A stretch of DNA of 40,533 nucleotides from a virus. The number at the start of each line of letters is the position of its first letter. Within the stretch, counting starts at the first letter, position 1. Below, piece after piece: positions 16,258-38,200 of the stretch. The notes beneath the pieces are model-generated. The model saw only the letters and a list, made by a program, of their open reading frames with translations, did not search any database and was not told the DNA's origin. The position numbers and the translations under genes are program-made. The stretch spans positions 1-40,533 of IMG/VR virus record IMGVR_UViG_3300030419_003062, one strand, 5' to 3'.

Positions 16258-16548
16258 ATGAAAAAAATAATTAATTTCATTAGAACTTACAAAAAAGAAT
16301 TAGGTGGTTTGCTTCGCCATGCTGCTACTATTGCTGGTGGTGTGTTAATTGCGAAAGGTACATTAGACTCTGAGACTTTTCATATGATTTTAGGTGCTTC
16401 TGCTAGTATTGCTGGTACAGGTTGGTCGTTTGCAAATAAATTAAACCATAAGAAAGAAATTAAAGTTGCACTTTCAACAGATCCTGTATCTGGAGAGCAA
16501 ACTCGTAAGTTTAACGAAGAAACAAAAGCTTGGGAAAGCGCTGCATAA
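16258..16548 (+). CDS. Putative holin (Pam3-gp28-like)
   Basis: 96 aa. A basic N-terminus (MKKIINFIRTYKKE) is followed by LLRHAATIAGGVLIAKG (about 18-34), a short loop, and MILGASASIAGTGWSFANKL (43-62), then a charged tail. The 'LLRH..T..GG.L...G' start and a second Gly/Ala-rich helix ending in W-S resemble the small two-helix putative holins of the Pam3-gp28 group. Family role: inner-membrane lesions that release or activate the endolysin. The lysozyme gene is two genes downstream, which fits. The helices are only moderately hydrophobic, so this is a family-level guess. Confidence 0.6.
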   Translation: MKKIINFIRTYKKELGGLLRHAATIAGGVLIAKGTLDSETFHMILGASASIAGTGWSFANKLNHKKEIKVALSTDPVSGEQTRKFNEETKAWESAA

Positions 16549-16930: not shown

Positions 16931-16938
16931 TATAAATA
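16931..16938 (+). promoter_or_regulatory. T4-type late promoter for the lysozyme gene
   Basis: Perfect TATAAATA, 6 nt before the ATG at 16945. Confidence 0.75.
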
Positions 16939-16944
16939 ATTATA

Positions 16945-17763
16945 ATGACATTTGATCAGTTAACAGAGGCAAATGAAATAATATTGCAAGAGGGACCATT
17001 TACTAATGCTTTAGCAGCATTAGGAATTATAGGTGCCACTTTAGGTGGCGCCGGGCAAGTACAAGCCAGAATGCCTACTCCAATAACTCAAGCTATTAAG
17101 CAGGATCAGTCATATTATGAGTATATTGCTCCGAGTGAAGGTAAAGGTAAAGACGGTCGACCCGGGTATGCGTACAAAGATCATAAAGGTTACTTAACCG
17201 TTGGAGTAGGCCATCTTGTACTTAAAAATGATAGAGCATTACAACAGGTGGCAGGCAAGCATTATTCTAATGTTGTAAGAGGTCGCACCCCTCTTACTGA
17301 TAAACAAATGGAGCAATTGTTTAATATTGATGTCAAACAAAAGATTTCAGCAGCAAGACGTGCATTACCAGCATTTGATTCTTATCCTCAATATTTACGT
17401 AATGCTATTGTAGATGGATTCTTTAGAGGTGATCTTTCTGGTAGTAAAGATACATTAGCTCTAATGAATAAGGGTGACTTTAAAGCAGCTGCAAAAGAAT
17501 ACTTAAATCACGCTGGTTATAGGAAGTCAAAGGAGGAAGGTACTGGAGTTGCTGGTAGAATGGAGCGTAATGCTGCAGTCTTTGCTACATTTGGTGGAGA
17601 TATACCTCAACAACCAGTTAAAACTGACTTCTATGTAGTTAAACCTGGTGATACATTGAGTAAAATTTCTAAATTAACAGGTAAGTCTATAGAAGACTTA
17701 ATGAGAAGTAATAATATTAATAATCCGAATAAGATTAACGTCGGGCAACGGTTATCTATATAA
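16945..17763 (+). CDS. GH24 (T4-type) lysozyme with LysM domain and capsid-signal-like N-terminus
   Basis: 272 aa. The lysozyme domain covers about 50-215 with the T4-lysozyme catalytic triad in place: E65 (APSEGKG), D79 (YKDHKGYLT) and T85 (LTVGVGH). A LysM cell-wall-binding module closes the protein (229-272, FYVVKPGDTLSKISKLTGKS). Ahead of the enzyme is an unusual N-terminus: MTFDQLTEANEIILQEGPF, resembling T4 capsid-targeting peptides (MKTYQEFIAE/A) and offering two L-x-E sites (LTE/A after residue 8; LQE/G after 16). A weakly hydrophobic stretch follows (19-38, NALAALGIIGATLGG). It is either the endolysin (SAR-type or holin-released) or a virion-packaged lysozyme. The spike protein at the start of the window lacks a lysozyme domain, so an entry role is possible. 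Muramidase assignment is strong; location is inference. Confidence 0.88.
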   Translation: MTFDQLTEANEIILQEGPFTNALAALGIIGATLGGAGQVQARMPTPITQAIKQDQSYYEYIAPSEGKGKDGRPGYAYKDHKGYLTVGVGHLVLKNDRALQQVAGKHYSNVVRGRTPLTDKQMEQLFNIDVKQKISAARRALPAFDSYPQYLRNAIVDGFFRGDLSGSKDTLALMNKGDFKAAAKEYLNHAGYRKSKEEGTGVAGRMERNAAVFATFGGDIPQQPVKTDFYVVKPGDTLSKISKLTGKSIEDLMRSNNINNPNKINVGQRLSI

Positions 17764-17768
17764 TTTTG

Positions 17769-17776
17769 CATAAATA
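17769..17776 (+). promoter_or_regulatory. T4-type late promoter for the 17782-21595 operon
   Basis: CATAAATA, 5 nt before the ATG at 17782. No further octamer sits before the four downstream genes, which all overlap. Confidence 0.65.
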
Positions 17777-17781
17777 CTTAT

Positions 17782-18099
17782 ATGCAAACAACAGCTGATA
17801 AGTTAAATAAGTATCTAGACCAATATACCGTTTGCGACGCTCAAGAAAAGTCAGAACCTGATGGTGCAAGAATGTCTAAAAATGAACTATTTCATATTGG
17901 TGAACTAGCTAATGAACTTCATGACTTACTTACTGATGATTACCCGTTAGACGATTGGATGGAAGCAAAATTGACTAAAGCGGCTGATTATGTCAGATCG
18001 GTACATCAAGCTGTTACGTATGATGTAACAGGAGAAGATAATGAGAGTACTAATGAACATGTAACAGTTCATATAACTACTGTAAACCAGGATGCCTAA
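17782..18099 (+). CDS. Hypothetical acidic helical protein (105 aa)
   Basis: First gene of a five-gene overlapping operon. The core segment (NELFHIGELANELHDLLTDD, then LDDWMEAKLTKAADYVRSVH) has the 'helix - W - K-I/L-x-x-A - dY' pattern of a small helical domain that recurs in marine T4-like phage proteins, often joined to head or structural proteins. No catalytic motif, signal or membrane segment. Its 3' end overlaps the nucleotidyltransferase gene by 8 nt. Function unknown. Confidence 0.75.
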   Translation: MQTTADKLNKYLDQYTVCDAQEKSEPDGARMSKNELFHIGELANELHDLLTDDYPLDDWMEAKLTKAADYVRSVHQAVTYDVTGEDNESTNEHVTVHITTVNQDA

Positions 18100-19036
18100 G
18101 AAATTAAAACGATGTGTTAAAGCAGTAAAAAAGCAAGGTAAAGATACCTCTGCTGCGTATGCTATTTGTAATAAGAGTATTAAAAAAGAAAATTTTAAGA
18201 AATATTTTGAAAATCAAAACTATTATAATGACACATTGCATCCAAATTTTTGGGATGAGTTTGAATTTAAGGAAGATGTATTAAAGCCTGTTTTAAAAAT
18301 TGTAAATGATTTTGTTAAAGATGATGATCATGTATCACCTGAAATGGTCGAAGATATACAACTAACAGGTTCGTTAGCCAACTATAATTACTCTGAGTAT
18401 TCAGATTTAGATGTTCATATCTTATTAGATTTTGCTGATATCAATGAAGATGAGTCTATAGTAAAGAGAGCGTTAGATGGAAAGAGATTTATATGGAATT
18501 TAAGACACGATATAAGATTTAATGGCCATGAAGTTGAGTTATATTTTCAAGATATTCATGAACCTCATGTGGCTTCCGGTCTATTTAGTTTATCTGGTAA
18601 TAGATGGATTAAAAAACCTAAACACCAAGCACCGGAGGTAGATCATCAAGATGTTCAAAAAAAGGCTGCTTCATTTAAAAAAGAGCTTGACCTTTTACAA
18701 GATGCATTAGATAATATTAGCGATGAGAAAGAATTTAGTCTCGTTAATAAACGTGCAAAGAAATTAAAAGACAAGCTTATGAAAATGCGTAAGGAAGGTC
18801 TTGCAAGTAAAGGAGAGTTTTCAGTAGAAAACTTAGCATTTAAAACATTACGTAATGATGAGACTATAGCTAAATTAAATGACTTGATTATTAAGTCATA
18901 TGATCTTATGTTCTCTAAAGATGACTTAGAAGAGAAGGCTGGGTTAGATAAATGGGCCATGTCTTTATTGCACGCTTTATATACAAACAATCCATCACAA
19001 CAAGATAAACCGGAAAGGTACCCAGCAGGAATATGA
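18092..19036 (+). CDS. Pol-beta-superfamily nucleotidyltransferase
   Basis: 314 aa. The nucleotidyltransferase signature is at 90-110: QLTGSLANYNYSEYSDLDVH, with G93-S94 and the metal-binding pair D105/D107; E149 in HEVELYF is a likely third carboxylate. Residues 1-30 (MPKKLKRCVKAVKKQGKDTS and AAYAICNKSI) form a basic segment with two cysteines that recurs in phage head-associated proteins. Residues 33-43 (ENFKKYFENQN) resemble the start of the next gene's product. The C-terminal half is a charged helical region (about 185-300) with no known motif. Family members add nucleotides to RNA, DNA, proteins or small molecules; the substrate cannot be read from sequence. It overlaps its neighbours by 8 and 4 nt. 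Confidence 0.75.
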   Translation: MPKKLKRCVKAVKKQGKDTSAAYAICNKSIKKENFKKYFENQNYYNDTLHPNFWDEFEFKEDVLKPVLKIVNDFVKDDDHVSPEMVEDIQLTGSLANYNYSEYSDLDVHILLDFADINEDESIVKRALDGKRFIWNLRHDIRFNGHEVELYFQDIHEPHVASGLFSLSGNRWIKKPKHQAPEVDHQDVQKKAASFKKELDLLQDALDNISDEKEFSLVNKRAKKLKDKLMKMRKEGLASKGEFSVENLAFKTLRNDETIAKLNDLIIKSYDLMFSKDDLEEKAGLDKWAMSLLHALYTNNPSQQDKPERYPAGI

Positions 19037-20142
19037 AGACATTTAAACAGTATTTTTTTGAATCTTATTCTATTTTTCCAAAAACAGCAGAAGAGATCTC
19101 TGCGTTAGGGTTTCCAAGTCATAATGTAGAAAACTTATTTAATATTATTAAAAGCTATCCCAATATTAATATCGAAGACCCTATAGGTCTTGATACTTCA
19201 AATTTTAATAATATAAAAATTACACGAACCCTTGGGAGGGATGTTAATTTTATAAATTACTTACAAGATAAATTAGGAATTAATATTAATACTAACGGTG
19301 TCACTAGATGGAATAATGTTAAAATAAGTTTCGGTGAAGGTTCGAGAGGTGGTCGTGGTTCACTCTCCAAAGGTGCATCTTTTGAAAAAGAATTAGAACA
19401 AGATTTAAATAATTTTAATGCTGGTAATGAAGAAATAAAATATATAGACCTAGTCAATTCTATTGTTTCACGCTTTCAGCTTGAGCCTGGTAATTTCGAA
19501 ATTATACCTGAAGGTTTTGAAAACAAATCAAGACCATTACAATTTACTAGCTCTGGTCCTGTTATAGGTCATTCAGGAAGGTCTGTAGCAGATACATTAA
19601 CTGACATAACTATAAAAAAAGGAGATGAGTATATTTATCTATCTCTTAAATATGGTAATCAAGTTACATTTTTCAATAGTGGTATAGCAAAGATTTTACC
19701 TGCAAAAGAAATACAGCAAGGAGCTGTAAAAAATAAAAATGGTATTTTATTATTAGATACATTAGGTATAGATAATGAATTGTTTTGTAGAGTTTTTAAC
19801 GAATATGGAGACACTGATTTTTCTGAGTATAATATTCCAAGTCAAGATTACGATAAACAAATGTTATTTAATTTAGTATCTTCTGGAGTTGGTGAGGGAT
19901 ATTATATGGTTCATTGTAAAAAACAAGAACAATGTAAGTTTGAACTTGTTGATAAATCATATAACATTAAAGCTTCTACAATTACTACACCTGTTTCTAT
20001 TTTATATGGCGGGATTAAGGGTACAGGTAAACGATTAGATTTAGTATTTGAATCTGAAATATATAAATTTAAAGTTAATATAAGAAATAAAGGTGGTAAA
20101 TTATATCCAACACATCTGATGTGTGATTATGTACAAAAATGA
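19033..20142 (+). CDS. Possible PD-(D/E)XK nuclease with capsid-signal-like N-terminus
   Basis: 369 aa. The N-terminus MKTFKQYFFESYS closely resembles T4 internal-protein targeting peptides (MKTYQEFIAE/A), although the putative cleavage tripeptide FFE is not the preferred I/L-x-E. The centre has the spacing of a restriction-enzyme fold: a helix with E118/E120 (SFEKELEQDLNNF), D191 in ADTLTDITI, and S204-L-K206 in YIYLSLKYGNQ, i.e. E...D...SxK. The GSRGGRGSLSKG loop before the helix is Gly/Arg rich. The last third is beta-rich with a CKKQEQC pair. Start is fixed by the ATGA overlap with the previous gene. Nuclease function is inference from motif spacing. Confidence 0.5.
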   Translation: MKTFKQYFFESYSIFPKTAEEISALGFPSHNVENLFNIIKSYPNINIEDPIGLDTSNFNNIKITRTLGRDVNFINYLQDKLGININTNGVTRWNNVKISFGEGSRGGRGSLSKGASFEKELEQDLNNFNAGNEEIKYIDLVNSIVSRFQLEPGNFEIIPEGFENKSRPLQFTSSGPVIGHSGRSVADTLTDITIKKGDEYIYLSLKYGNQVTFFNSGIAKILPAKEIQQGAVKNKNGILLLDTLGIDNELFCRVFNEYGDTDFSEYNIPSQDYDKQMLFNLVSSGVGEGYYMVHCKKQEQCKFELVDKSYNIKASTITTPVSILYGGIKGTGKRLDLVFESEIYKFKVNIRNKGGKLYPTHLMCDYVQK

Positions 20143-20357
20143 ACGCAGTAGGGTTATATGATACACATATTATGGGGTTTAGAGTTAAAATACAACCCTA
20201 TAAGATTAGTATCTTTGATGATGATAATAATATTATTGGAGAGAAAATACCTAATAAAATAGTAAAGTATATAATTGAAGAAGGTTTTTGTGATACATGG
20301 TTAAGAAATGCTATGGGTATAAAAGTAAATGTATATAGGCAAAGAGAAGAATGTTAG
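20139..20357 (+). CDS. Hypothetical 72-aa protein
   Basis: Overlaps the previous gene by 4 nt and the next by 7 nt, so it is a coupled member of the operon. It has a short beta-rich start (GFRVKIQPYKISIFDDDNN) and a C-terminal helix (VKYIIEEGFCDTWLRNAMGI). No family recognised, no membrane segment. Confidence 0.7.
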   Translation: MNAVGLYDTHIMGFRVKIQPYKISIFDDDNNIIGEKIPNKIVKYIIEEGFCDTWLRNAMGIKVNVYRQREEC

Positions 20358-21595
20358 AATATAAAGAATATTTTCAATTATACGAATCCGCTGGACCAAA
20401 TAAACACTTAACTCACTTAGAGGAGTTAATATTAACTAATGGTAAAGATGGTGCTACACGTGCTGTACAATACCTACAAGCTCTTACAGAAGTATTAGAT
20501 AGTGATACTCCTAAAGCAATTAATACTACTGTTAAGTATGATGGAGCTCCTGCTGTAATAATTGGAAATGATCCTAATGGTAATTTCTTTGTCGGTAGTA
20601 AATCAGTATTTGCTAAGACACCTAAGTTAAATTATTCTATTGAAGACATTAAACAGAATCATGCACAATCACCTGGTCTGGTAGATAAGTTAGTTCAAAC
20701 TTTTGTACACTTTAAAAATGTAAATTTTAATTCTACCTATCAAGGAGACTTTTTATTCGATGATCAGATTAAAGAATTGAATACTATTGATGGAGTAGAG
20801 CATGTTATCTTTAAACCTAATACAATTGTATATGCAGTTCCTACTGACAGTGAAGAGGGCCGAGAAATTGTGAAAGCAAAAATTGGAGTTGTTTTTCATA
20901 CTGAGTATGATGTTAATTTAGATGAAGAAGGTTTACCAAGATTTACAACTAAAAAGTTTGGTGTAGATGTTACAAATATTAATCCTGGACCTGATGTTTA
21001 TGTTAAGGATGCTTACTTTGAGAACGACGCAGGTCATGTTACTTTAACGGAAGAGGAGACTAAATTAGTAAATGTGTCTATCAATAGCGCAAAACAATCT
21101 ATTAGTAATATAGATTTTAATATGGTCACTGATCAAATGCTCTCTAATATGAATACATATATTAATACAGAGATCCGTGGAGGAGAGTTTTTAGGTGACA
21201 GTGCTGTATCATATGAGAATTTTGTTGAATGGTTTACTGGTAGAGTAGATAAAAAAATAAGCACATTAAAAAGTGATGCTGGTATAGCAAGAGCAACTAA
21301 AACAAAAGAAACATTACTATCTTTAATAGCAGAAGCTCGAGAAGATATTTTAAATGTATTTGAATTTCAAAAATCAATTAAACAAGCTAAAGATATATTC
21401 ATACAAAAATATAATAATATGATGCAAGGAGTTAACATGAAGCATTATTTATTTGAACCTAATGGTGATTTAGTTGTCACAGAACCTGAAGGTTATGTTG
21501 CTATAGATACTACCGGTAATGCTGTAAAGTTTGTTGATAGGTTAGAGTTTAGTAGAGCTAACTTCGCTATTGATAGTAAATTCAAAACTGCATAG
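20351..21595 (+). CDS. Ligase-like (KxDG) protein with capsid-signal-like N-terminus
   Basis: 414 aa, of a type that recurs in T4-like marine phages as a protein of unknown function. The N-terminus MLEYKEYFQLYESAGPNK carries an L-Y-E/S tripeptide (10-13) like a T4 prohead-protease site. Residues 60-69 read TVKYDGAPAV; K62-x-D64-G65 matches motif I of covalent nucleotidyltransferases (DNA/RNA ligases, capping enzymes). Further parallels in order are VGSKSVF (81-87), YQGDFLF (130-136, like the 'GE' motif III) and two lysine-containing strands, HVIFKPNTIVYAVP (151-164) and VKAKIGVVFHTEYD (174-187, like motif V). The C-terminal half (about 225-365) is helical. If correct it would adenylylate K62 and join or modify nucleic-acid ends; this is inference from motifs. 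Confidence 0.55.
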   Translation: MLEYKEYFQLYESAGPNKHLTHLEELILTNGKDGATRAVQYLQALTEVLDSDTPKAINTTVKYDGAPAVIIGNDPNGNFFVGSKSVFAKTPKLNYSIEDIKQNHAQSPGLVDKLVQTFVHFKNVNFNSTYQGDFLFDDQIKELNTIDGVEHVIFKPNTIVYAVPTDSEEGREIVKAKIGVVFHTEYDVNLDEEGLPRFTTKKFGVDVTNINPGPDVYVKDAYFENDAGHVTLTEEETKLVNVSINSAKQSISNIDFNMVTDQMLSNMNTYINTEIRGGEFLGDSAVSYENFVEWFTGRVDKKISTLKSDAGIARATKTKETLLSLIAEAREDILNVFEFQKSIKQAKDIFIQKYNNMMQGVNMKHYLFEPNGDLVVTEPEGYVAIDTTGNAVKFVDRLEFSRANFAIDSKFKTA

Positions 21596-23278: not shown

Positions 23279-26200
23279 ATGGTTAATAAAGATTTTATTG
23301 TAAAAAAGGGTCTTGTTGTAGGAGGTTCTTCAGCAAATGGTAGTATATCCGCAGGAACAGCTACATTTCAAACAAGTTTAAGTACAGCTTCATTATCAAC
23401 TACATCTATAACTACTACCAGTGACAATGGTTTCACTGTATGTAGTAACGGTAGTGTTGGTATAGGAACAACTGTACCAACAGAAGCCCTAACCGTATCA
23501 GGTAACATAAGCGCATCAGGTACAGTATGTGCAGATGCCTTTAATTCCGTTACAGGTGGAGAATCTATATCATTTAATGATCCTGTTTTAGTAGTAGCTA
23601 ACTTATCTGCTCAAGAAGTATTTGGTTCTACATGTGTATGTACTCCTTTAGTTAGAGGTACATCTTGTGTTACATCTCCTATCTTAGAAGGTACCACTTG
23701 TGTAGATTCTCCATTCATTAAAGGTAGTGAGTGTGTATGTTCAGAAGTATTACACGGTACTGTTTGTGTTAATACGCCATTAGTTAAAGGATCAACATGT
23801 GTTGACACACCGGTGGTTTGGGGTAGTACTAAAGTTTGTTCACCATCAGTATGTGGTACTACAAGTGTATTATCTCCATTATTAAGTGGTACATCAATGT
23901 GCGCTGTTAGTGGTTACTTTACAGGTACTGGTGCAGTTCTAGTACCAGTTGGTACAACAGCACAAAGACCAACAGCTCAAGATGGTTTGTTACGTCTTAA
24001 TACAACTACTAATTCATTTGAAGGTTACCAAAATAGTAACTGGCAAGGCTTAGGTGGTGTTATTGATGTTGATCAAGACACATATGTTAGTACTGAAAAG
24101 ACATCCGATGATGATACTTTATTTTTCTATACATCTGGTGCAGAGAGAATGCGTATACTATCAGGTGGTAGTGTTGGTATAGGTACTAGTGCTCCTAATG
24201 AAGCTCTTACAATATCTGGTAATTTAAGTGCAAGTGGGGATATAATTTTATCTGAAGACCAAAGAATATATTTTGAAACAGATAAAACAACTTGGATTGA
24301 AACAGATTCTGTTGATAGATTAAGATTCGTTGCTGGTGGTCAGCAAATGTTACTATTAGACCAAGATGACAATAGAGTAAACATTGGATATGGAAGTAAA
24401 TTAGGGGTAGGGTTAGGTAATCATACAGCACCAAATGAAGCTTTAACTGTGTCGGGTAATATTAGTGCTGATGGTATAGTATATGCTGATGCATTTAATT
24501 CAAAGACAGGTGGTAGTGAGATTACTTTTAATGATAATGTTACATTGAGCGCTAATTTAACTGGAACTACTTTATGCGCTAGTACTAGTTTACTTTCACC
24601 GTTAGTATGCGGTACTACTAAAGTTTGTACACCATTAGTAGATACCACTTGCACTACAACTGCTGTATTATCTAGTTCTAGTGTATGTGGAACTGGTACA
24701 TCTTTGATATGTGGAGGGGCAATTTGTTCTACGGCAAGCGTTACAACACCTTTATTATCAGCTACAAATGTATGTGGTTACAGTAGTGTATGTGGTGCAA
24801 TAGTTAATGGTAGTACGTGCGTTACAACACCTTTATTATCATCTACTAATATTACTACTAGCGGTACACTCTCAGCAGATAAAGTATATGCTGCGGATGG
24901 TTTTTATCATTCTGATAATCAGAATAATTCCTATTTAAAGTTTCCAACTGGTGATAAAGTTCAGATAAATGCTGGTGGTGTAAACTTTCTATATGCATGG
25001 CAGAAAGATGCTGATGTTAATAAACTTATCTTCAATGATGATAATACTGATACTGATATTGTATTCAGAAGTGCTAATGGTTCAAATAATAAATTATTAT
25101 ATCTTGATGCAAGTGCAGATGCGATAGGTATAAAAACAGGTACTCCAAATGAAGCTCTTACGGTATCAGGTAATATAAGTGCGTCGGGTATAGTATATGC
25201 TGATGCATTTAATTCAAAGACAGGTGGTAGTGCAATAGAATTTAATGACCCAGTTACATTAAGCGGTAGTTTAACTGGTGTTACTGTGTGTGGTACTACT
25301 AGTTTACTTTCACCGTTAGTATGCGGTACTACTAAAGTTTGTACACCAACAGTACACGGTACAACATTAGTATGTGGTGCGACGGTATGTGGTAGTACAG
25401 CGGTTCATTCTCCATTAGTATGTGGTACGACAAGCGTTAACACGCCAATATTAAATGGTAGTAGTTGTGCTGTAGCACCTCTATTATCAGCTACAAATGT
25501 ATGTGGTTACAGTAGTGTGTGTGGTGCAATAGTTAATGGTAGTACATGTGTTACAACACCGCATCTATCAGCAACTAGCCTGTGTGTAGGTACTCTCAGT
25601 GGAGATGGTAGCGCTCTTACTAATATTGCTACTACATTAAGTGCAGCAGGTGATTCTGGTACAGGCTCTATATGCTTAAAAACACAATCATTTACAATAG
25701 CTGGTACATCAAATGAGATTGAAACTAGTGCATCTAGTCAAACAGTAACAATTGGATTACCAAGCGCTGTATCAGTTACTACTAGCCTTTCATCGCCAAT
25801 TATTGGTGGTAGTACTTGTGTTGATTCGCCGTTAGTAAAAGGTACGACTTGTGTAACATCTCCTCTTGTATGTGGTACTACAAGTGTTAACACTCCTATA
25901 TTAAATGGTAGTAGTTGCGCTGTAGCGCCTTTATTATCTGCAACAAATGTTTATACTGGAGGTAGTGTTGGTGTTGGTACAACTACACCAAATGAGGCTC
26001 TTACGGTATCAGGTAATGTTAGTGCTACTGGTACAGTATATGCTGATGCATTTAATTCAAAGACGGGTGGTACTGCTATTAATTTTAATGATGATATTAC
26101 ATTAGCAGGTGATATAACTGGTACAACAGGAAACTTTACAACAAGCTTAAGTGCTGCAGCCCTCAGTGGTGCAGCTGGTGCTGGTGTTACAACTGGGGCA

Positions 26201-29200
26201 ACAATTTCACTTGCTGGTGATCTAGGTGGTTCGGTTAATTTAGATACATTAGATGGTACAAAGACATTAACAGCAACTATACAAGCTAATAGTGTTGCTC
26301 TCGCGACAGACACTACAGGTAATTATGTTCAATCGTTAGCTTTAAATACAACAACACCTTCATTGACAGGTTCTAGTTTAGCAGCAGCTGAAGGTAATAC
26401 TATAACAGGTCTTGGATTATCTGCTACAGGAGTTACTGCTGGTAGTTATGGTAGTACAACTGCCATTCCAGTTGTTACTGTATTAGAAGATGGTAGATTG
26501 TCAAGCATAAGTACATCGACAATTTCAACTACACTCAGTGCTGCAGGAGATTCTGGTACTGGTACAGTAGGGTTAGGTTCACAATCACTTACAATAGCTG
26601 GTACATCGAATGAGATTGAAACTAGTGCGTCAGGACAAACTGTTACAGTTGGATTACCAAGTGCAGTTTCGGTTACTACTAGTCTTTCATCACCGGCTTT
26701 ATCTGGTACTAATGTGTGTGGTAGTACATCTCTTCTTTCACCGTTAGTATGTGGTACAACTAAAGTATGTACACCGACAGTGCACGGTACAACGTTAGTA
26801 TGTGGTGCAACAGTTTGTGGTAGTACAGCTGTACATTCACCGTTAGTATGTGGTACGACTAAAGTATGTACACCAACAGTGCATGGCACTACATTAGTCT
26901 GTGGTGCAACAGTTTGTGCTAGTAGTAATCTTTATACAAATGGTAAGGTCGGTATATGTAATACTAACCCTAATCATGCATTATCAGTTACAGGTAATCT
27001 TAGTGCTACAGGTGATGCGTTTATTGATGGCGACTTAACTGTATGTGGAGAAGTTGAATATACAAACAGTACAGTTACATCTACTACAACAGCTTTTGAA
27101 GATAACTTCTTATTACAATCTACCGACTCTGGTTCAAGTGGTGCACCTGATATTACATTGTATAGAAATTCATCTACACCAGCTAATGATGATGACTTAG
27201 GTAACATTTTATTTAGAGGTAGGAATGATAATTCACAAGATGTAGAGTATGCTCAGATTTTAACTGATATTGTTGACGTTGCTGATGGTAGTGAGGATGC
27301 TAAGATTAGATTCTTAACTATGAAGGCTGGTACTCTGACTGATACCTTAGCAATGGATAGAGGCTTAGTTGGTATTGGAACTACCTCTCCAAATGTTAAT
27401 TTTCATGTTGAAACGAGTGTAGCAGACGTTCTCTCTAAATTTATTAACACAGATACAACAAACGGGCATGGGTTACTAATTAAGGCTGGTGGTTCTGCAA
27501 GTGATAAATACATAGCTACTTTTAGAGATGCTGCAAATAATACTAGATTACATTTATTAGCTGACGGTAGTGTTGGTGTTGGTACTACTGCACCAAATGA
27601 AAAGCTTACAGTGTCAGGTAGCTTGAGTGCTAGTACATCTGTTCTTTCTCCATTAGTATGTGGTACGACTAAAGTATGTACACCGACAGTGCATGGCACT
27701 ACATTGGTGTGTGGTGCTACAGTTTGTGGTAGTACAGTTATGGTGGCACCTAGTGCTTGTGTTACTACTTTATCAGCTACTAATGTTTATACAGCAGGTA
27801 GTGTTGGTATAGGAACTGCTACCCCGGGAGCCACTCTACATGTTAGAAGCGCAGCTGAGCTAAACGCCACATTTGAAAGTAGTGATAGCGGATCAAGAAT
27901 ATTAGTAAAAGATGACGATACCAATACCTATATTAACGCTGCGGATAATGTTGCTTCTATAGGTCAAAATGTTGGGCTCAATACTTCTAACCTAAATATT
28001 TTATCTAATGGTAGTGTTGGTCTAGGAACGATTAATCCTAATGAGAAGCTCACTGTCTCAGGAAATATTAGTGCAAGTGGTATAGTATATGCTGATGCAT
28101 TTAATTCAGTAACAGGTGGTACTGCAATAGATTTTAATGACAATATTGACTTAGCAGGTAACCTTACATTGAGTGGTCATGTTAGCGCTAATGGTGGTTA
28201 TTGTAGCGATAGTGTTTATAGTACTAAATTTGGTACAAATGCTTTATGCTCTCAGACCGGTGGTCTACAAAATTCTGCTTTTGGTCACCAAGCTTTAGAA
28301 GCAACAAATTCTGGTAAGTATAATGCTGCAGTAGGTTATAAGACTTTATCTTGTAACACAACAGGTTGTCATAATACCGGTGTTGGTATGAATTCTTTAA
28401 GAGCTAACACAACAGCTAAGTATAATACTGCTGTTGGTTCTTATTCCTTAACTGCTAACACAACAGGTGAGCGTAATGTTGCGGTGGGTTATACAACTTT
28501 AAAATGTAACACAACAGGTGCTAAGAATACTGCTCTTGGTAATAAAGCTTTATGTCTTAACACAACCGGTTATGAGAATACAGCTAGTGGTTATAAAGCT
28601 ATGTGTTTAAGTACAACGGGTATTAGAAATACTGCTAGTGGTTCTTATGCTTTAGCATATACTTCAACCGGTTCTTGTAATTCTGGTTTTGGTGCGTATT
28701 CTTTAAAAACAAACACAACAGGTAATTTTAATACTGCTAGTGGCTATCGAGCATTATTTTCCAACACAACATCCTCATACAACGTAGCAGTTGGTGGGTG
28801 TGCTTTATATACTCAAACAACTGGTTGTCGCAATGTTGGTGTCGGCTATTGGGCTTTAAGATATAACACAACAGGTTGTCATAATACTGCTAGTGGTAAC
28901 TACTCTTTACATTCTAATACAACTGGTTGCGAGAATGTAAGTACTGGTTATAAATCTCTAAAATCCAACACAACAGGTAATAGAAATACAGCGAGTGGTT
29001 ATCTTGCTTTATGTTCTAACACAACAGGTGCTAATAATACTGCGAGTAGTTATGCTGCTTTAAAATTTAATACGACAGGTTGTTTGAATGTTGCTACTGG
29101 TTATCAGGCTTTAATAAACAACACAACGGCTTCATCCAACACAGCATTTGGTGCATGTACTTTATATGCTAATACAACAGGTGCTAAGAATGTTGGTGTT

Positions 29201-32200
29201 GGTTTTAGAGCTTTAAAATCTAACACAACAGGTAGTTTTAATATTGCTACTGGTGTGGATGCCATGTACAATAACACAACCGGTAGTAATAATACAGCTA
29301 GTGGTTATTATGCACTAGGAAATAACACAACCGCTTCTAACAACACAGCTGTTGGTCATATTGCTTTAGCTAAAAGTACAACAGGTGCTTGTAATGCTGC
29401 GTTCGGTCGTAGTTCTATGTACTGTAATACAACAGGTGCTCTTAATACTGCTAGTGGAGCGTATTCCTTAAAATCTAACACAACAGGTAATTGTAATGCA
29501 GCATTTGGTTCTTATTCTTTATATACTAACACAACAGGTACTGATAATATTGCTGTTGGTCGTAGTGCTTTAGGATCTAACACAGCAGGCTGTTTGAATG
29601 TTGCTGTTGGTAAACAAGCATTAAACCAAAACACAACAGCTTCATGTAACACAGCAATTGGTGCATGTTCTTTATATGCTAATACAACAGGTGCTAACAA
29701 TACTGGTGTAGGTTATAAAGCTTTAGTAGCTAACACTTGTGGAAATAAGAACGCCGCTTTTGGTGATTACGCTTTATGTAAAAATACAACAGGTGGATGT
29801 AATGTTGCTATGGGTTGTGTGTCGTTGCTATCTAACACTACAGGTAATTATAATAGTGCTATTGGTATTGGTGCCTTACAAAATAACACAACAGCTGCTC
29901 AAAACACTGCTATGGGATATAGGTCTTTATATTCTAATACAACAGGGGCTTGTAATACTGCTGTTGGTCCTCAATCTTTATATAGTAACACAACAGCTAA
30001 TAATAACACAGCAGTTGGTGCATGTACTTTATATGCTAATACTACTGGTGCTAAGAATGTTGGTGTTGGTTTTAGAGCTTTAAAAGCTAACACAACAGGT
30101 AGTTGGAATACTGCCAGTGGTGTTTATGCTTTAGATTCTAATACAACTGGTAATTTAAATACAGCATTTGGTTATTGTTCTACAGGTAGTAACACAACAG
30201 GTTGGGGTAATGCTGGCTTCGGGGCTAAGGCATTAATGTGTAACGCAACAGGTTGTAAAAATACTGCTAGTGGTTATGGAGCTTTATGTCTTAACACACA
30301 TAATGCTAACACAGCATATGGTTATTTAGCTATGCGCGAGAACACATCCGGTACATATAACACAGGAGTTGGTATCGAAGCTGTAAATAAAAATACAACA
30401 GCTCATTACACTACAGGTTTTGGTGCTTGGGCCTTAAAATCTAACACAACAGGAGCACAAAATACAGCTAGTGGTTATGGGTCGTTAAGAGACAATACAA
30501 CAGCTTCTAAGAATTCAGCTTTTGGTTATCAATCCATACAGCTTAACACTACAGGTCATACTAATACCGGTATTGGAAATATAGCTCTCAAAAATAATAC
30601 AACAGGTAATTATAACACTGCTGTCGGCATGGGTGCGTTAACTTTTAACACAACCGGTGCTATGAATACTGCTAGTGGCCGGTATGCTTTAAGAACTAAT
30701 ACAACAGGTGCATGTAACACTACCCATGGTAGTCACTCCTTATACAGTAATACGACAGGTTGTCTGAATACTGCAAGTGGTGCTTATGCTTTAAGAGCTA
30801 ACACAACAGCCTCATACAACACAGCATATGGTGCATGTACTTTATATGCTAATACTACAGGTGCTAATAATACAGCAGTTGGTTTTAGGGCTTTAGTAGC
30901 TAATACCTGTGGAAATAAGAACGCCGCTTTTGGTAATTGTGCTTTATGTAGTAATACTACAGGTTCAAATAATGTTGCGATGGGTTGTGTAGCGTTACTA
31001 TCTAACTCGACAGGTAGTTATAATAGTGCTGTTGGTGTTGCGTCGCTTGAGGCTAATACTACAGGTGCTTGTAATACAGCTAGTGGTTATAGGGCTTTAT
31101 ATGTCAACACAACAGGTACTAGAAATACTGCTTTTGGAACTTTATCTTTACTTAGTAACACAACAGCCAGTTACAACACAGTAGTAGGTGCATGTGCTTT
31201 ATATGCTAACACAACAGGCCCAGCTAATACTGCACATGGTTATAAGGCTTTATTATCTAATACAACAGGTGGTTGTAATACTTCTAGTGGATATCAATCC
31301 TTAAGAAATAATACAACAGGTTCTCTTAATACTGCTAGCGGTGCATGTGCCTTATATACTAACACAACAGGTGGTTGGAATACTGCTACTGGCTCAAACG
31401 CTTTAAAATCTAACACAACAGGTACAAATAATACTGCTAGTGGTTATGAGGCTTTAAGAAATAACACAACAGGTTGTTTAAATACTGCAACAGGTAACAA
31501 ATCTTTACTTAGCAATACAACTGGATGTAGTAATACTGCAACAGGTAATAAGGCTTTATGTACTAACACAACAGGTTGTGATAATACTGCAACTGGAGCC
31601 GCTGTTTTAAAACTCAACACAACAGGTTGTAGAAATACTGGTAGCGGTTATGCTGCTTTAAGGTCTAACACAACTGGTTGCTCTAATATAGCAAGTGGTT
31701 ATACAGCTTTATATACTAATACAACTGGTTATTATAATAATGCATATGGTCATGCTAGTTTGTATTATAACTCAACTGGTAATAGTAATAGTGGTATGGG
31801 TAACCATTCTCTATTTAAAAATACAACAGGTTGTCTTAATGTTGCTATCGGTCGAGATGCGTTATATGAAAACACGACAGCTAATGAAAATACAGCAGTT
31901 GGTGCATGTTCTTTATATGCTAATACAACAGGTACGAAAGTTACGGCTGTTGGTTTTAAGGCTTTAGCAGCTAATACTTGTGGTAATAATAATACTGCTG
32001 TCGGTCATATTGCTTTAAATAAAAATACAACTGGTAGTAATAATACAGCAGTTGGTCGCTATTCTTTAGAAGCTAATACAACCGGTATTCAGAACACTGC
32101 TAGTGGTACATATTCTAATGGTTATAACACAACAGGTGATAAAAACACTTCTCTTGGTTATGCCGCTTTAATGAAGAACACAACAGCGGATTCTAATACA

Positions 32201-35200
32201 GCACTCGGTCATACGGCACTGTATGAAAACTTAACAGGTCAGTATAATACTGCTAGTGGTTTTGAGGCTTTAAAGAAAAATACAACTGGTAATAATAATA
32301 CTGCTACTGGTGTTCTTGCTTTATGTTCTAACACAACAGGTTCTGAGAATACAGCGGCTGGTCAGAGAGCGCTTCTCACTAACACAACAGGAGCAGAAAA
32401 CGTAGCAATTGGTTCAAGTGCGTTGAGACTTAACACAACAGGTGATTGTAATGTTGGAGTTGGTTTTGAATCTTTAAAAAATACCACAACAGCTAATAAG
32501 AACACAGCAGTTGGTGCATGTTCTTTATATGCTAATACAACTGGTACAGATAACACAGCTAGTGGAGCTTATTCGTTACAAGCCAACACATCAGGTTGTA
32601 GAAATACAGCTAGTGGTAACGAAGCTTTAAAAAATAACACTACAGGGTGTGAGAATGTAGCAGTTGGTTATTCAGGATTACGATTATCCACAACAGGTTG
32701 TTTTAATACTGCTATTGGTTCTCAAGCTTTAGATAAAAGCACAACAGGCTGTTATAATAACGCTGGTGGTTACAAAGGTCTTTTTTGTAACACAACTGGT
32801 CATCGTAATACTGCTACTGGTGCTTTTGCGATATATGCTAATACAACAGGTTACTATAATAGTGGTACTGGTTATGCTGCTTTGTATGGTAATACAACAG
32901 GTACTCTTAATACAGCTAGTGGTTATCAAGCTTTAAGATCCAACACAACAGCTGCATATAACACAGCAGTTGGTGCATGTTCTTTATATGCTAACACAAC
33001 AGGTGATAGTAATACTGGTGTTGGTTTTAGAGCTTTAAAAGCTAATACATGTGGTAGTTGGAATACTGCTAGTGGTATGTATGCTTTAGGTTCTAATACA
33101 ACAGGTGGTAAAAACACAGCAGTTGGTTATAGAGCTTTATGTTCTAACACAACAGCTGATTACAATACTGGTATTGGTTGGCGGGCTTTACTAGCTAACA
33201 CAACCGGTGCTAGAAATACTGCTACTGGTATGTATGCTTTACACTCTAACACAACAGGTGCTTGTAATACTGCTAGTGGTAGTTATTCGTTATATGCTAA
33301 TACTACAGCCAGTTCTAATACTGCTCATGGTTATTATGCTTTAAAATCTAATACTACAGGTTCTGAGAACACAGCTGTAGGTAAAGCTAGTCTGTGTGCT
33401 AACACAACAGGTGGATCTAATACTGCTATTGGTGTAGAGGCTTTACAAAAGAACACAACAGGTAGTAATAATGTAGCTTTAGGTAAATTAGCTTTGAACT
33501 ACAATACAACAGCAGGTAGTAATGTAGCTACTGGTTATCAGACTTTAAGAGTTAATACAACAGGTGCTTCTAATACTGCTACTGGTCATGCTGTGTTGTG
33601 TAGTAATACAACAGGCACTTTGAATACTGCTAGTGGGTTTGAGTCCTTAAGAGCTAACACAACGGCCTCATACAACACAGCATATGGTGCATGTACTTTA
33701 TTTGCTAATACTACAGGTGCATCTAATACTGGTGTTGGTTTTAAGGCTTTAGTTACTAATACAACCGGTGATGATAATACTGCTAGTGGTAAGTATGCCT
33801 TACAGCTTAACACAACAGGTAATAAAAATACGGCCGTTGGTAATTGTGCTTTACAAAATAACACAACAGGTGTTAGAAATACTGCCTTTGGGCGAGGGGC
33901 ACTACTTACTAGTACAACATCTAGTTATAACACAGGGATAGGACAGAATGCTAATTATTATCAAACTACAGGTTCTCAGAATACTAGTATTGGATCTCAC
34001 GCTGCGTTTAAAACTACAACAGGTTATAATAATGTTGCTAGCGGTTTCGTTGCTTTGTGTGCTAATACAACTGGTTTTGCAAATACTGCTATTGGTAAGT
34101 CGGCCATACAAAATAACACAACAGGTTGTTTTAATACAGCAGTAGGTACGTGTGCTTTACGCGATAACACAACAGCTTGTAAAAATGTAGCAGTAGGTGC
34201 ATGTGCTTTATTTTCTAATACTACAGCTAATTCGAATGTAGCGATTGGGTACTCGAGTTTATGCTGTACTACAACAGGTGATAAAAATACTGCTACCGGT
34301 GTTTGGTCGATGTGGAAAAATTCGACAGGTAATAATAATACAGCTAGTGGTTATTATGCTTTAGCTCAGAATACGACAGGATGTCGTAATATAGCGATTG
34401 GTGCATGTTCATTATTTTCTAACTCAACAGCCAATTACAACACAGCAGTTGGTGTATGTTCTTTATATGCTAATACTACAGGTGCTAGGAATGTTGCAGT
34501 TGGCTCTTTCGCATTACAAGATAATACAAGTGGTTGTTATAATGCAGCATTTGGATACAATACCCTAGGAAATAATACAACAGGTGGTTGTAATACTGCT
34601 AGTGGTTATAAAGCTTTAGAAACTAACACAACAGGTTCTAGAAATACAGGACTGGGTTTTTGTGCTTTAGCAGCTAATACAACTGCTAATAACAATACCG
34701 CAGTTGGGGAAGCAGCTTTAAAAGCTAACACAACTGGTAGTTATAATACAGGTATTGGTAGAAATTCTTTAACATCTACTACAACAGGTACTTGTAATAC
34801 TGGTTTAGGTTATGGTTCTTTAAATGCTAATACTACTGGTTGTATGAATAATGCCATTGGAGTTAACGCAATGGAATGTAATACTACAGGTTGTCGTAAC
34901 GTCGCGTTAGGTAATAATGCTTTATATGCTAATACAACCGGTCTTTATAATACTGCTACAGGTACATGTTCATTGTACGCTAATACGCAAGGTCACAATA
35001 ATATTGGAACTGGTTTCATGTCACTGCTAAATAATACAACCGGTTGTTATAATAGTGCGCTTGGTTCGTATGTTTTATGTGGTAATACTACCGGTTGCTA
35101 TAATACAGCTACCGGTTATCAAGCTTTATTTACAAACACAACAGCTTCCCACAACACAGCAGTTGGTACATGTTCTTTATTTGCTAATACAACCGGTCAA

Positions 35201-38200
35201 CAAAATACTGCTAGCGGCTATAGTGCTTTAAAAGCTAACACAACAGGTTCAAAAAACACAGCATTTGGTGCATGTACTTTATATGCTAATACAACAGGTG
35301 CTACTAATACTGCAAGTGGTTATGCAGCTTTGTGTGCTAATACATGTGGTGATAATAATACTGCAGTTGGAGCATATTCTTTACGAGCTAATACAACAGC
35401 CTCCGGTAATACTGCTGTAGGTAGAGAAGCTTTAAGATCAGCAACGTCAGGTGGTCAAAATACTGGTATTGGTCTGCAAGCTGGTTACAGCATCACTACT
35501 GGTTATCAAAACACTGCTATAGGTGAGACTGCATTGTATGCTACTACAACCGGTCAAAGAAATACAGCAAGTGGTTATAGAGCTTTATTTAATAACACTA
35601 CTGGTAGTGGTTCTGTTGCACTCGGTGCATGTGCTTTATGTGGTACTACAACTGCTGGTAATAATATTGCTATAGGTAGAGGTGCTATGAGAAGCAATAC
35701 TACTGGTAGTATTAATAGTGCAAGTGGTTATAAATCCTTGTACGCTAACACAACCGGTACACATAACGCCGTTCATGGTTATGAAGCTATGTGTAAGAAT
35801 ACAACCGGTGGTTATAATACTGCAATCGGTACATGCGCTTTATTTGCTAATATAACAGGTGATAGTAATACTGGTGTAGGTTATAGAGCTTTAAAAGCTA
35901 ATACAACTGGTTGTTGTAATACTGCTATTGGATTATGCGCTGGGTTTGTAAATACAACCGGTCATTGTAATGTTTATATTGGTAGGGGAGCTAATCCAAA
36001 TGCATCTGGTTTAAATAATACTGTAGTTATAGGTGTTGGTGCACAAGCTACAGCAACTAATGATTTTATATTAGGGAACTCTAGTCATGTACTTGACATA
36101 CCTAGTGCTAAACTTAAGATAGGTGGTAGTGCTGGTAGTAATGGTCAGGTTCTTACTACAGATGGTGCTGGCGGTGTTAGCTGGACCACGACAGACTTTA
36201 CAGGTACTGGTACAGTAACACTTTCAGCATGTCAGAATACATCTGCTGGTACTGCAGCTGGTAGTTCTTTGAATACAAGTGGAGGTTCCATAGCATGTCA
36301 GAATACTGCATATGGTTTTAATGCTTTAAAACTTACTACATCAGGTTGTTATAATAATGCCTTTGGTGCTTGTGCATTAGATTCAAACACATCAGGTTGT
36401 AATAACACAGCAGTTGGTGCATCTGCCCTGCAAGCTAATACAACTGGTTGCTTTAATGATGCATTTGGTCATGGTAGTTTACTGTCTAATTCGACTGGTA
36501 AATATAATACCGGTATCGGATCATATGCTGTACTGGCTAATACAGATGGTTGTAGTAATGCTGGAGTAGGTTACGCTGCTTTGTATTGTAATACAACAGG
36601 AGATGCTAATACTGCTGTGGGTGAAGGCGCCATGTATAAAAATACTACAGGGTGTTATGGTGTAGGAGTTGGTCACGGTGCATTATCTTGTAACACAACA
36701 GGGGCAGAAAACGTTGCTGTTGGTCGTCGATCATTATATCTTAATACAACTGGACATTCTAATACTGCTACTGGTTCATGTGCTTTATATGACAACACAA
36801 CAGGTTGTTTCAATCAAGCGTTTGGCAAGAGAGCATTAACTAACAACACTACAGGTTGTCATAATGTAGCTATTGGTACAGATGCTTTATTTGGTAATAC
36901 AACTGGTAGTTGGAACACTGCAAGTGGTTATTATGCATTAGGTGTTGGTGCTGCTGGTTGTGAAAATACTGCTATGGGATTCAAATCTGGTATGGGTGTT
37001 AATGGTGGTAAGTATAACTCTGCATTTGGTTTTTGTTCTTTACAGGCTACTGGTACAAAATGTCTTAACACTGCTATTGGTCATAAATCAATGGCAGCTC
37101 TTACAACTGGTTGTAATAATACTGGTCTTGGTTATGGTTCGTTATGTGCTGCTACAACTGCCTGTGACAATACCGCTACTGGTTATGGTGCATTAGGTGC
37201 TCTAACAACAGGTAGTTCAAACGTCGCGTCGGGTTATAGTTCTGGTAATGCAATTACTACCGGGGTACGTAATACAGCAATGGGGCATGCATCGTTAAAT
37301 AAAAACACAACTGGTCACGATAATGTTGCAATTGGTAGACAAGCTATGGGTTGTAATACAACAGCTGCTTATAATACAGTAGTTGGGGCTTGTGCAATGT
37401 TTTGTAATACAACAACAGGTGATGCTTCAGTTGCTATAGGATTCAAAGCTCTCCATACCAATTCAACTGGTAAATGTAATACAGCTGTAGGTTTTTGCGC
37501 TTCATATTCTAACACAACTGGTTGTTATAATACAGCTAGTGGTTATGCTGCTATGAAATCCAACACAACAGGAAAATATAGCGATGCATATGGTTCATTT
37601 AGTTTAACAGCTAGTGTAACTGGTACAGAGAACTCAGCATTTGGTTATGCTTCTTTAAAATGTAATACTTGTGGTAGTTATAATGCTGCGCATGGTACTT
37701 CATCTTTATATTCTAATACAACAGGTTGTTATAATACCGCAGTTGGTCATAGCGCTGTACTCTTGAACACTACTGGTTGTTATAATACAGGTCTGGGTCA
37801 TCACGCTTTATATACTAACACAAGCGGTAATCATAATACAGCAATTGGTATGTATGCTAATAATAATAACACAACTGGTAGTTTTAATGTAGGTGTTGGT
37901 AACTATGCATTACAACTCACCACAACAGCTAGTTATAATGTCGCTATGGGTTATGGTGCTGTATTAAACAACACAACAGGTGCTAATAATACTGGAATTG
38001 GTCACAATGCTTTAGTTGCTAACACAACAGCTAGTAATAATACAGCAGTTGGTATGAAAGCTTTATGTACCGCTACAACAGGTGGTAGTAATGTTGCCGT
38101 TGGTGGTAATGCTTTAAGAGCCCTCACGACAGGTAATAGTAATACTGCTCTTGGTACAATGTCTGGGTATTACTTTACAACTGGATGTGAAAATACATCA

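Follow-up and report, generated by a model that had tools for sequence, protein, structure and literature searches.

Candidate head-targeted enzymes and an exchangeable cargo slot behind a shared N-terminal peptide in a T4-like marine phage

The internal proteins IPI, IPII and IPIII of phage T4, together with Alt and the internal protein loci of other T-even phages, are the closest precedent (PMC9026906, PMC12373910, PMC3012670) for the gene cluster described here, which occupies positions 16945 to 21595 of IMG/VR virus record IMGVR_UViG_3300030419_003062 (G000; 40,533 bases, hereafter the window), a fragment of a T4-like marine phage. The cluster encodes a lysozyme, a nucleotidyltransferase, a nuclease-like protein and a ligase-like protein of family DUF6267, each carrying a short peptide (the tag) that resembles the T4 head-targeting leader, and the features of the cluster given below lie on the plus strand of the window. 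In T4 IPIII the first ten residues suffice for packaging, with residues 4 and 7 acting in targeting and residues 8 and 10 in processing, and the leader is cut after L/I-x-E (PMC9026906). The T-even proteins Ip1 to Ip3 share the leader only and block different GmrSD enzymes (PMC12373910). The principle of a head-targeting leader is already known from T4; what is new here is the locus at 19033 as a swappable cargo slot behind a common tag.

The cluster resembles the T4 loci in its short leaders with aromatic residues at positions 4 and 7 and a downstream glutamate, in the unrelated bodies that stand behind one leader, and in the polymorphism of the locus among close relatives. It differs in that the T4 proteins are small basic inhibitors, whereas the cargo here consists of predicted enzymes of 270 to 415 residues in phages of marine hosts. 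Two further systems are comparable. Mass spectrometry of T4-like cyanophage virions detected a cytidylyltransferase (T4-GC190), an S-adenosylmethionine hydrolase, a kinase and the 'Cas9' of S-CREM2 (PMC3037559, PMC10665884, PMC9146016); a targeting peptide is not mentioned in the text consulted, and contamination is left as a possibility. Like the window cargo, these are enzymes, their tags were recognised in the present analysis, and a homologue of the window nucleotidyltransferase (gp156) is among them. The polyvalent proteins of phages (PMC5512222) are likewise predicted to be packaged and injected and include Pol-beta nucleotidyltransferases and nucleases, but they are multidomain fusions, whereas here separate genes bear a common leader. 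In a limited search, which is no proof of novelty, a single paper, a T4 review, was found to combine 'capsid targeting sequence' with 'cyanophage'.

Exchange of bodies at the 19033 locus

The gene at 19033..20142 is flanked by the conserved nucleotidyltransferase gene (18092..19036) and by a conserved gene for a 72-residue protein (20139..20357). The window version of its product (phrog_8438) is only 15-17% identical to those of most relatives, yet alignment showed the first nine residues to be nearly invariant. Sixty proteins encoded by the gene following the nucleotidyltransferase were compiled, 50 of them distinct, and their bodies fell into nine families. Identity between bodies of different families was 0.257, against 0.275 for shuffled sequence, whereas residues 2 to 9 of the tag were 76% identical between families and positions 4, 7 and 8 were aromatic in all 50 distinct proteins.

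The same borders were seen in DNA. The window and the near-twin contig L002 were 98-100% identical up to the start of the slot, 81% identical in the 27-nucleotide tag and 22-43% identical, the level of random sequence, in the body; identity of 98-100% was regained before the ligase gene, within about 180 nucleotides of its start, and the slot protein of L002 is unrelated to that of the window. In seven more pairs the body was likewise at the random level, with the tag on one side and the downstream flank on the other both conserved; for some of these pairs, gaps upset the ungapped alignment of the nucleotidyltransferase gene or the ligase gene. On these sequence comparisons, the 19033 locus is a cassette slot in which whole bodies are swapped behind a conserved tag; recombination would exchange the bodies between one border at the tag and another just before the 72-residue gene, which the DNA identities place at the downstream edge of the exchanged segment.

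Some relatives carry arrays of two to four tagged open reading frames (ORFs) within a single slot, a further departure from the T4 loci. In L156 the slot contains a 153-residue protein, a pair of restriction-like nucleases and, on the opposite strand, a small gene; L010 has a near-empty slot without a broken gene. Forty-nine of the 52 slot ORFs of at least 100 residues were tagged, with start choice favouring tagged starts. In other phages, the window slot protein has homologues with a different, longer leader, which also ends in L/I-x-E, so leader and body are separate modules.

Further elements were observed at these loci. The small opposite-strand tagged gene (MLSFKDFYENITIPVYE... KARYWSCRMW) was located inside the slot at L156:6519-6869, L158:3026-3376 and G005:120407-120787 (minus strand), and an untagged GIY-YIG-like ORF was inserted in some slots (L157:4376-5116, L159:2002-2742). 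An alternative leader, MNLIDKxILEWSYRTxKGYPDxNNExDLKxFESxFGFxLxE, stood before unrelated bodies in L252-L291 (e.g. L252:3881-5077, L274:3244-4407, L283:2489-3682); this long form is possibly a second class of targeting leader.

Tags of the cluster and published virion proteomes

The three N-termini that a preliminary description of the window had likened to the T4 targeting signal were found where it placed them: MTFDQLTE/A on the lysozyme (16945), MKTFKQYFFE/S on the slot protein (19033..19062) and MLEYKEYFQLYE/S on the ligase-like protein (20351..20386). Each is at the extreme N-terminus. A pattern resembling the capsid-targeting sequence (CTS) was matched by four candidate starts out of 84 in the window, compared with none among 204 internal start codons. 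Besides the three tags, the match at 16466 reflects a start of the T5orf172 gene that was called too far upstream. Relatives in IMG/VR kept the tags of all four genes, as MTFDQL[TNSA]EANEIILQE in the lysozyme (T2, F3, Q5 and L6 invariant in eight sequences), M[KRI][TSPL]FK.FFE in the slot protein, ML[ET][YF]K.YFPLYEAAG in the DUF6267 protein, and MSKSFKTYFED or MPNSFKTYFEE in the nucleotidyltransferase. Tagged DUF6267 and slot proteins also occur in Methylophilales phage Melnitz, which is in culture (tagged genes 15, 16 and 18). The internal segment ENFKKYFENQ of the window nucleotidyltransferase (18188..18217), earlier noted as similar, is an internal copy of the tag, which forms the extreme N-terminus in most relatives. 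It is internal in the window phage because a small module (MPKKLKRCVKAVKKQG...; MPKKLKRCVKAVKKQGKDTSAAYAICNKSIKK) stands ahead of it; in other relatives its place is taken by an extended version of this module or by a DUF3008-like module. The extra modules observed before this tag were of three kinds, RCVKKVQKQGKxKSSAYAICSKS, the DUF3008-like MPAxSKxQQRFMGMVHAIQKGE and a further insert in L153/L155; their positions were 18092-18190 in the window, L156:3090, L157:2267 and L155:2322.

The aromatic positions 4 and 7 of T4 are matched in all 50 distinct slot proteins, in the ligase-like protein (Y4/Y7) and in the S-CREM2 virion proteins considered below, and are shifted by one (5/8) in the nucleotidyltransferase. 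The predicted models gave low confidence to the tags, with a predicted local distance difference test (pLDDT) score of about 33 over residues 1-10 of the slot protein and below 50 over residues 1-14 of the ligase-like protein. Cleavage by a gp21-type protease, which had been predicted for all three N-termini, fits the L/I-x-E sites of the ligase-like protein (L-Y-E) and lysozyme (L-T-E), and is doubtful before S11 of the slot protein because the site there is F-F-E. Among distant DUF6267 leaders, L/I-x-E was present in 77 of 84 distinct sequences, against 18.8 +/- 3.4 in shuffles, a contrast whose independence is overstated since the sequences are related; the next residue was usually A or S. 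The gp21-family prohead protease (PF03420) is encoded in the cluster-bearing close relatives G001, G005 and G010; in the window, a 40.5-kb fragment, none was seen and none was looked for. Three genes of G001 have further CTS-like starts, at 69003-69965 (MKTFKDFYEDNE, 320 residues), 80384-80968 (MIPFKQYIAEANPKSLIVVDVQP, 194 residues) and 112163-112672 (MSKFDTLFEEQ, 169 residues), and none of the three has a Pfam match.

The published virion proteome of S-CREM2, obtained by mass spectrometry (PMC10665884), was compared with the tag pattern. Seven of the 219 S-CREM2 proteins match it and five of these were in the virion (Fisher p=0.00075 among non-structural proteins), a value that is indicative only: tags of relatives had guided the design of the pattern, but the N-termini of S-CREM2 were inspected before any counting. 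The two matches outside the virion are ORFs of 55 and 66 residues. The tagged virion proteins are gp6 (MKDFDSFLEE), gp13 (MKDLHSFLTE), gp14 ((V/M)KRFDAFLTE), gp136 (MQTFSMFFSE) and gp154 (MKNFSSFLTE); they comprise the S-adenosylmethionine hydrolase, the kinase, the cytidylyltransferase, gp13 and the Lys-rich gp136 (L243, L245, L247). In the 'Cas9' protein gp12 this peptide starts at residue 19. Also detected in the virion was gp156, to which the window nucleotidyltransferase is 33% identical (E=9e-36). Cyanophage homologues of the slot and DUF6267 proteins are mostly without a tag, and the untagged DUF6267 proteins S-CREM2 gp87 and S-SZBM1_141 were undetected in the respective virion proteomes. 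For S-SZBM1, one of three clear tags was detected, in a proteome too shallow to test the rule.

Predicted activities of the cargo

The slot protein of the window was modelled with a pLDDT of 89, its tag being disordered. The closest fold matches were HinP1I (Z of 10.3, root-mean-square deviation 4.3 over 194 residues, and Z of 9.2) and MspI (8.4), followed by Hjc, EcoRV and HincII; Foldseek alone was weak (E of at least 0.12). Residues E118, D191, S204 and K206 (S204-x-K206) are invariant or nearly so in 27 distant relatives, and the likeness to HinP1I and MspI extends from the predicted PD-(D/E)xK fold to a D...x-K catalytic pair in which the middle acidic residue is replaced, here by S204. 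The corresponding position is Q in HinP1I and N in MspI. Unlike these enzymes, the slot protein has an extra N-terminal domain of about 100 residues in addition to the tag; no recognisable sequence similarity to them and no adjacent methyltransferase was seen. For a different slot family, L018, a match to a model of type II restriction enzymes was obtained (PADLOC REase_II, E=2e-13). PADLOC assigned no defence family to the slot families besides REase_II for this one, most slot families had no known function in Pfam or PHROGs, a plasmid collection yielded no relative of the slot protein, and sequence searches of the PDB with the DUF6267, nucleotidyltransferase and slot profiles gave no credible match. 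The window protein, earlier read as nuclease-like, is restriction-enzyme-like in its predicted fold and is one of many interchangeable cargoes; the slot bodies that could be recognised are, from models, mostly restriction-endonuclease-like.

Avoidance of a self-site was considered and rejected as evidence. S-RSM4, which has a slot homologue, contains no CCGG where about 135 are expected, a tempting observation as MspI cuts CCGG. The loss is probably host-driven, because phages free of the homologue also lack ACCGGT, while SynMITS9220M01, which has it, keeps ACCGGT. In the comparison made with the S-RSM4 genome (L028-L031), ACCGGT was absent from most other cyanophages tested. The window family (window, G001, G005, G010) showed little or no avoidance of 4-base palindromes, whereas HTVC008M, S-RSM4, G003 and S-CREM2 avoid many of them strongly; the weak avoidance hints at modified phage DNA or at hosts poor in restriction.

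The DUF6267 protein (20351..21595; PF19782, 291.9 bits against a cut-off of 27) belongs to a family whose members occur in the genomes of hundreds of cyanophages and other marine phages, and for which a limited literature search found no mention in papers. Invariant in 54 sequences were K62-x-D-G (K62, D64, G65), G132, D133, E380-G-x-V (E380, G381, V383) and K393, corresponding to motifs I, III, IV and V. Its model (pLDDT 84, residues 1-14 disordered) matched Naegleria RNA ligase (Z of 8.1) and T4 Rnl1/Rnl2 (7.5) above DNA ligases (5.2-5.4), and Foldseek gave E values of at least 0.36. In common with ATP-dependent RNA ligases (Rnl1/Rnl2/Rnl5, Trl1), the protein has K-x-D-G, EGxV and the terminal lysine in order, and its model ranks RNA ligases above DNA ligases; it differs in Z values of only 7-8, in the lack of a sequence match and in a long helical stretch, inserted at about residues 220-360, that separates motif IIIa from motif IV. 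The protein, previously labelled 'ligase-like', looks RNA-ligase-like, a reading that motifs and model only suggest.

The nucleotidyltransferase (18092..19036) is of predicted Pol-beta type (TGSLANYNYSEYSDLDVHILLD) and matches phrog_36119 (E=2.7e-35). Its PF01909 score of 18.1 bits is below the cut-off of 21, which S-CREM2 gp156 passes with 21.4.

Packaging, alternative explanations and neighbouring features

Taken together, it is likely that the cluster encodes late-made enzymes sent into the head by a T4-type capsid-targeting peptide and injected with the DNA. The tagged enzymes would join the prohead core late in infection, a gp21-type protease may trim the tags, and the enzymes would stay inside the head until they pass, together with the DNA, into the next host cell. 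The constant members would be the nucleotidyltransferase and the RNA-ligase-like protein, with the cargo slot as the gene between them. We infer that on entry the slot nuclease would act on DNA without the phage's protection, that is on non-phage DNA, and that the two constant enzymes would act on nucleic-acid ends, for example those of transfer RNAs cut by host defences. The original suggestion of a head-targeted enzyme cargo gains support from the match to the T4 determinants, the same peptide on S-CREM2 virion proteins and the enrichment of L/I-x-E in DUF6267 leaders, and is weakened for the slot protein in respect of cleavage.

Several observations weigh against packaging of the window proteins by this route. 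The lysozyme tag is the weakest and atypical, with aromatic or hydrophobic residues at 3 and 6 (F3/L6) instead of 4 and 7. The slot and nucleotidyltransferase tags of the window (F-F-E and Y-F-E) differ from those of the T4 proteins in being without the L/I-x-E that T4 gp21 needs, and position 10 is D in 19 of 50 slot proteins; in T4, D10 blocks processing and permits targeting. No clear tag is visible at the N-terminus of gp156, and the nucleotidyltransferase may therefore be packaged independently of one. Two perfect tags of S-SZBM1 (191, 192) went undetected in its shallow proteome of 30 proteins, and the virion mass spectrometry drawn on here comes from phages that are not close relatives of the window phage. 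Whole-genome counts of CTS-like starts were at background in the distant HTVC008M and S-RSM4, and the tag is therefore not universal in T4-like marine phages.

A wider proposal is put forward only tentatively: many marine T4-like phages may carry exchangeable, injected restriction-like nucleases together with an RNA-ligase-like enzyme and a nucleotidyltransferase, cutting host or competitor DNA at entry and sparing their own DNA, which is probably modified. A head-targeted cargo with a slot would carry the principle of the T4 internal proteins, one address label with swappable injected proteins, over from small T-even inhibitors to large enzymes in abundant marine phages. The tag would offer a simple sequence rule for predicting injected proteins of marine phages, with which the S-CREM2 virion data agree, DUF6267 would gain a testable role as an RNA-ligase-like and often virion-borne protein, and the slot would be a natural collection of diverse restriction-like enzymes.

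The least unlikely alternative is one about function alone, and it shares packaging with the explanation above: the slot proteins would be packaged, and serve as anti-restriction decoys or dominant-negative partners instead of nucleases. The T4 proteins Ip1 to Ip3 set the example, each blocking a distinct restriction enzyme behind the shared leader (PMC12373910), the variability of the slot is like that of an arms-race locus, and the window family, its palindromes not being avoided, may have modified DNA and face modification-dependent enzymes. We regard this as rather unlikely, since the near-invariance of E118, D191 and K206 in the distant relatives suggests activity and the T4 internal proteins are small and without nuclease folds. 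That the tag docks the enzymes on another phage or host machine, such as the sliding clamp or a late replication or repair complex, for late cytoplasmic action without packaging, is improbable. Aromatic short linear motifs do often dock on clamps, no canonical gp21 site is present in the slot tag, and DUF6267 genes lie near replication genes in other T4-like phages; the same peptide nevertheless occurs on S-CREM2 virion proteins, the tag positions match the T4 targeting residues, and the frequency of L/I-x-E in DUF6267 leaders fits a leader that is cleaved. Finally, a site for homing or selfish nucleases with the tag as a mere recombination seam, as nuclease-like bodies, exchange between near-identical flanks and the added GIY-YIG-like ORFs might suggest, is highly improbable given the tag on unrelated neighbour genes, bodies that are HinP1I/MspI-like or type II restriction-enzyme-like and not of homing families, tagged ORFs in tandem, and the near-empty slot of L010 without a broken gene.

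Late promoters had been ascribed to all genes of the cluster, but candidate motifs were seen for part of it only. The T4-type late-promoter motif TATAAATA lies directly 5' of the lysozyme gene (16931..16938), where it was kept in all eight loci compared, and just 5' of the holin gene (16243) and the T5orf172 gene (16561); none was found before 18092, 19033 or 20351, and the window total of six is no excess over the 11.4 expected by chance. The lysozyme gene itself (16945..17763, N-terminal peptide MTFDQLTEA) encodes a LysM domain (E=2.5e-15) and a Phage_lysozyme domain (27.5 bits against a cut-off of 22.3). It is followed by a gene for a 105-residue protein (17782..18099) without a tag or a confident family, a second acidic small gene of the cluster. 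Other genes of the window were read as both ribonucleotide reductase subunits, the holin-like gene and, at 23279-39673, a repetitive protein of 5,464 residues composed of many NTTGxxNTAxG-type repeats, which is probably a tail fibre.

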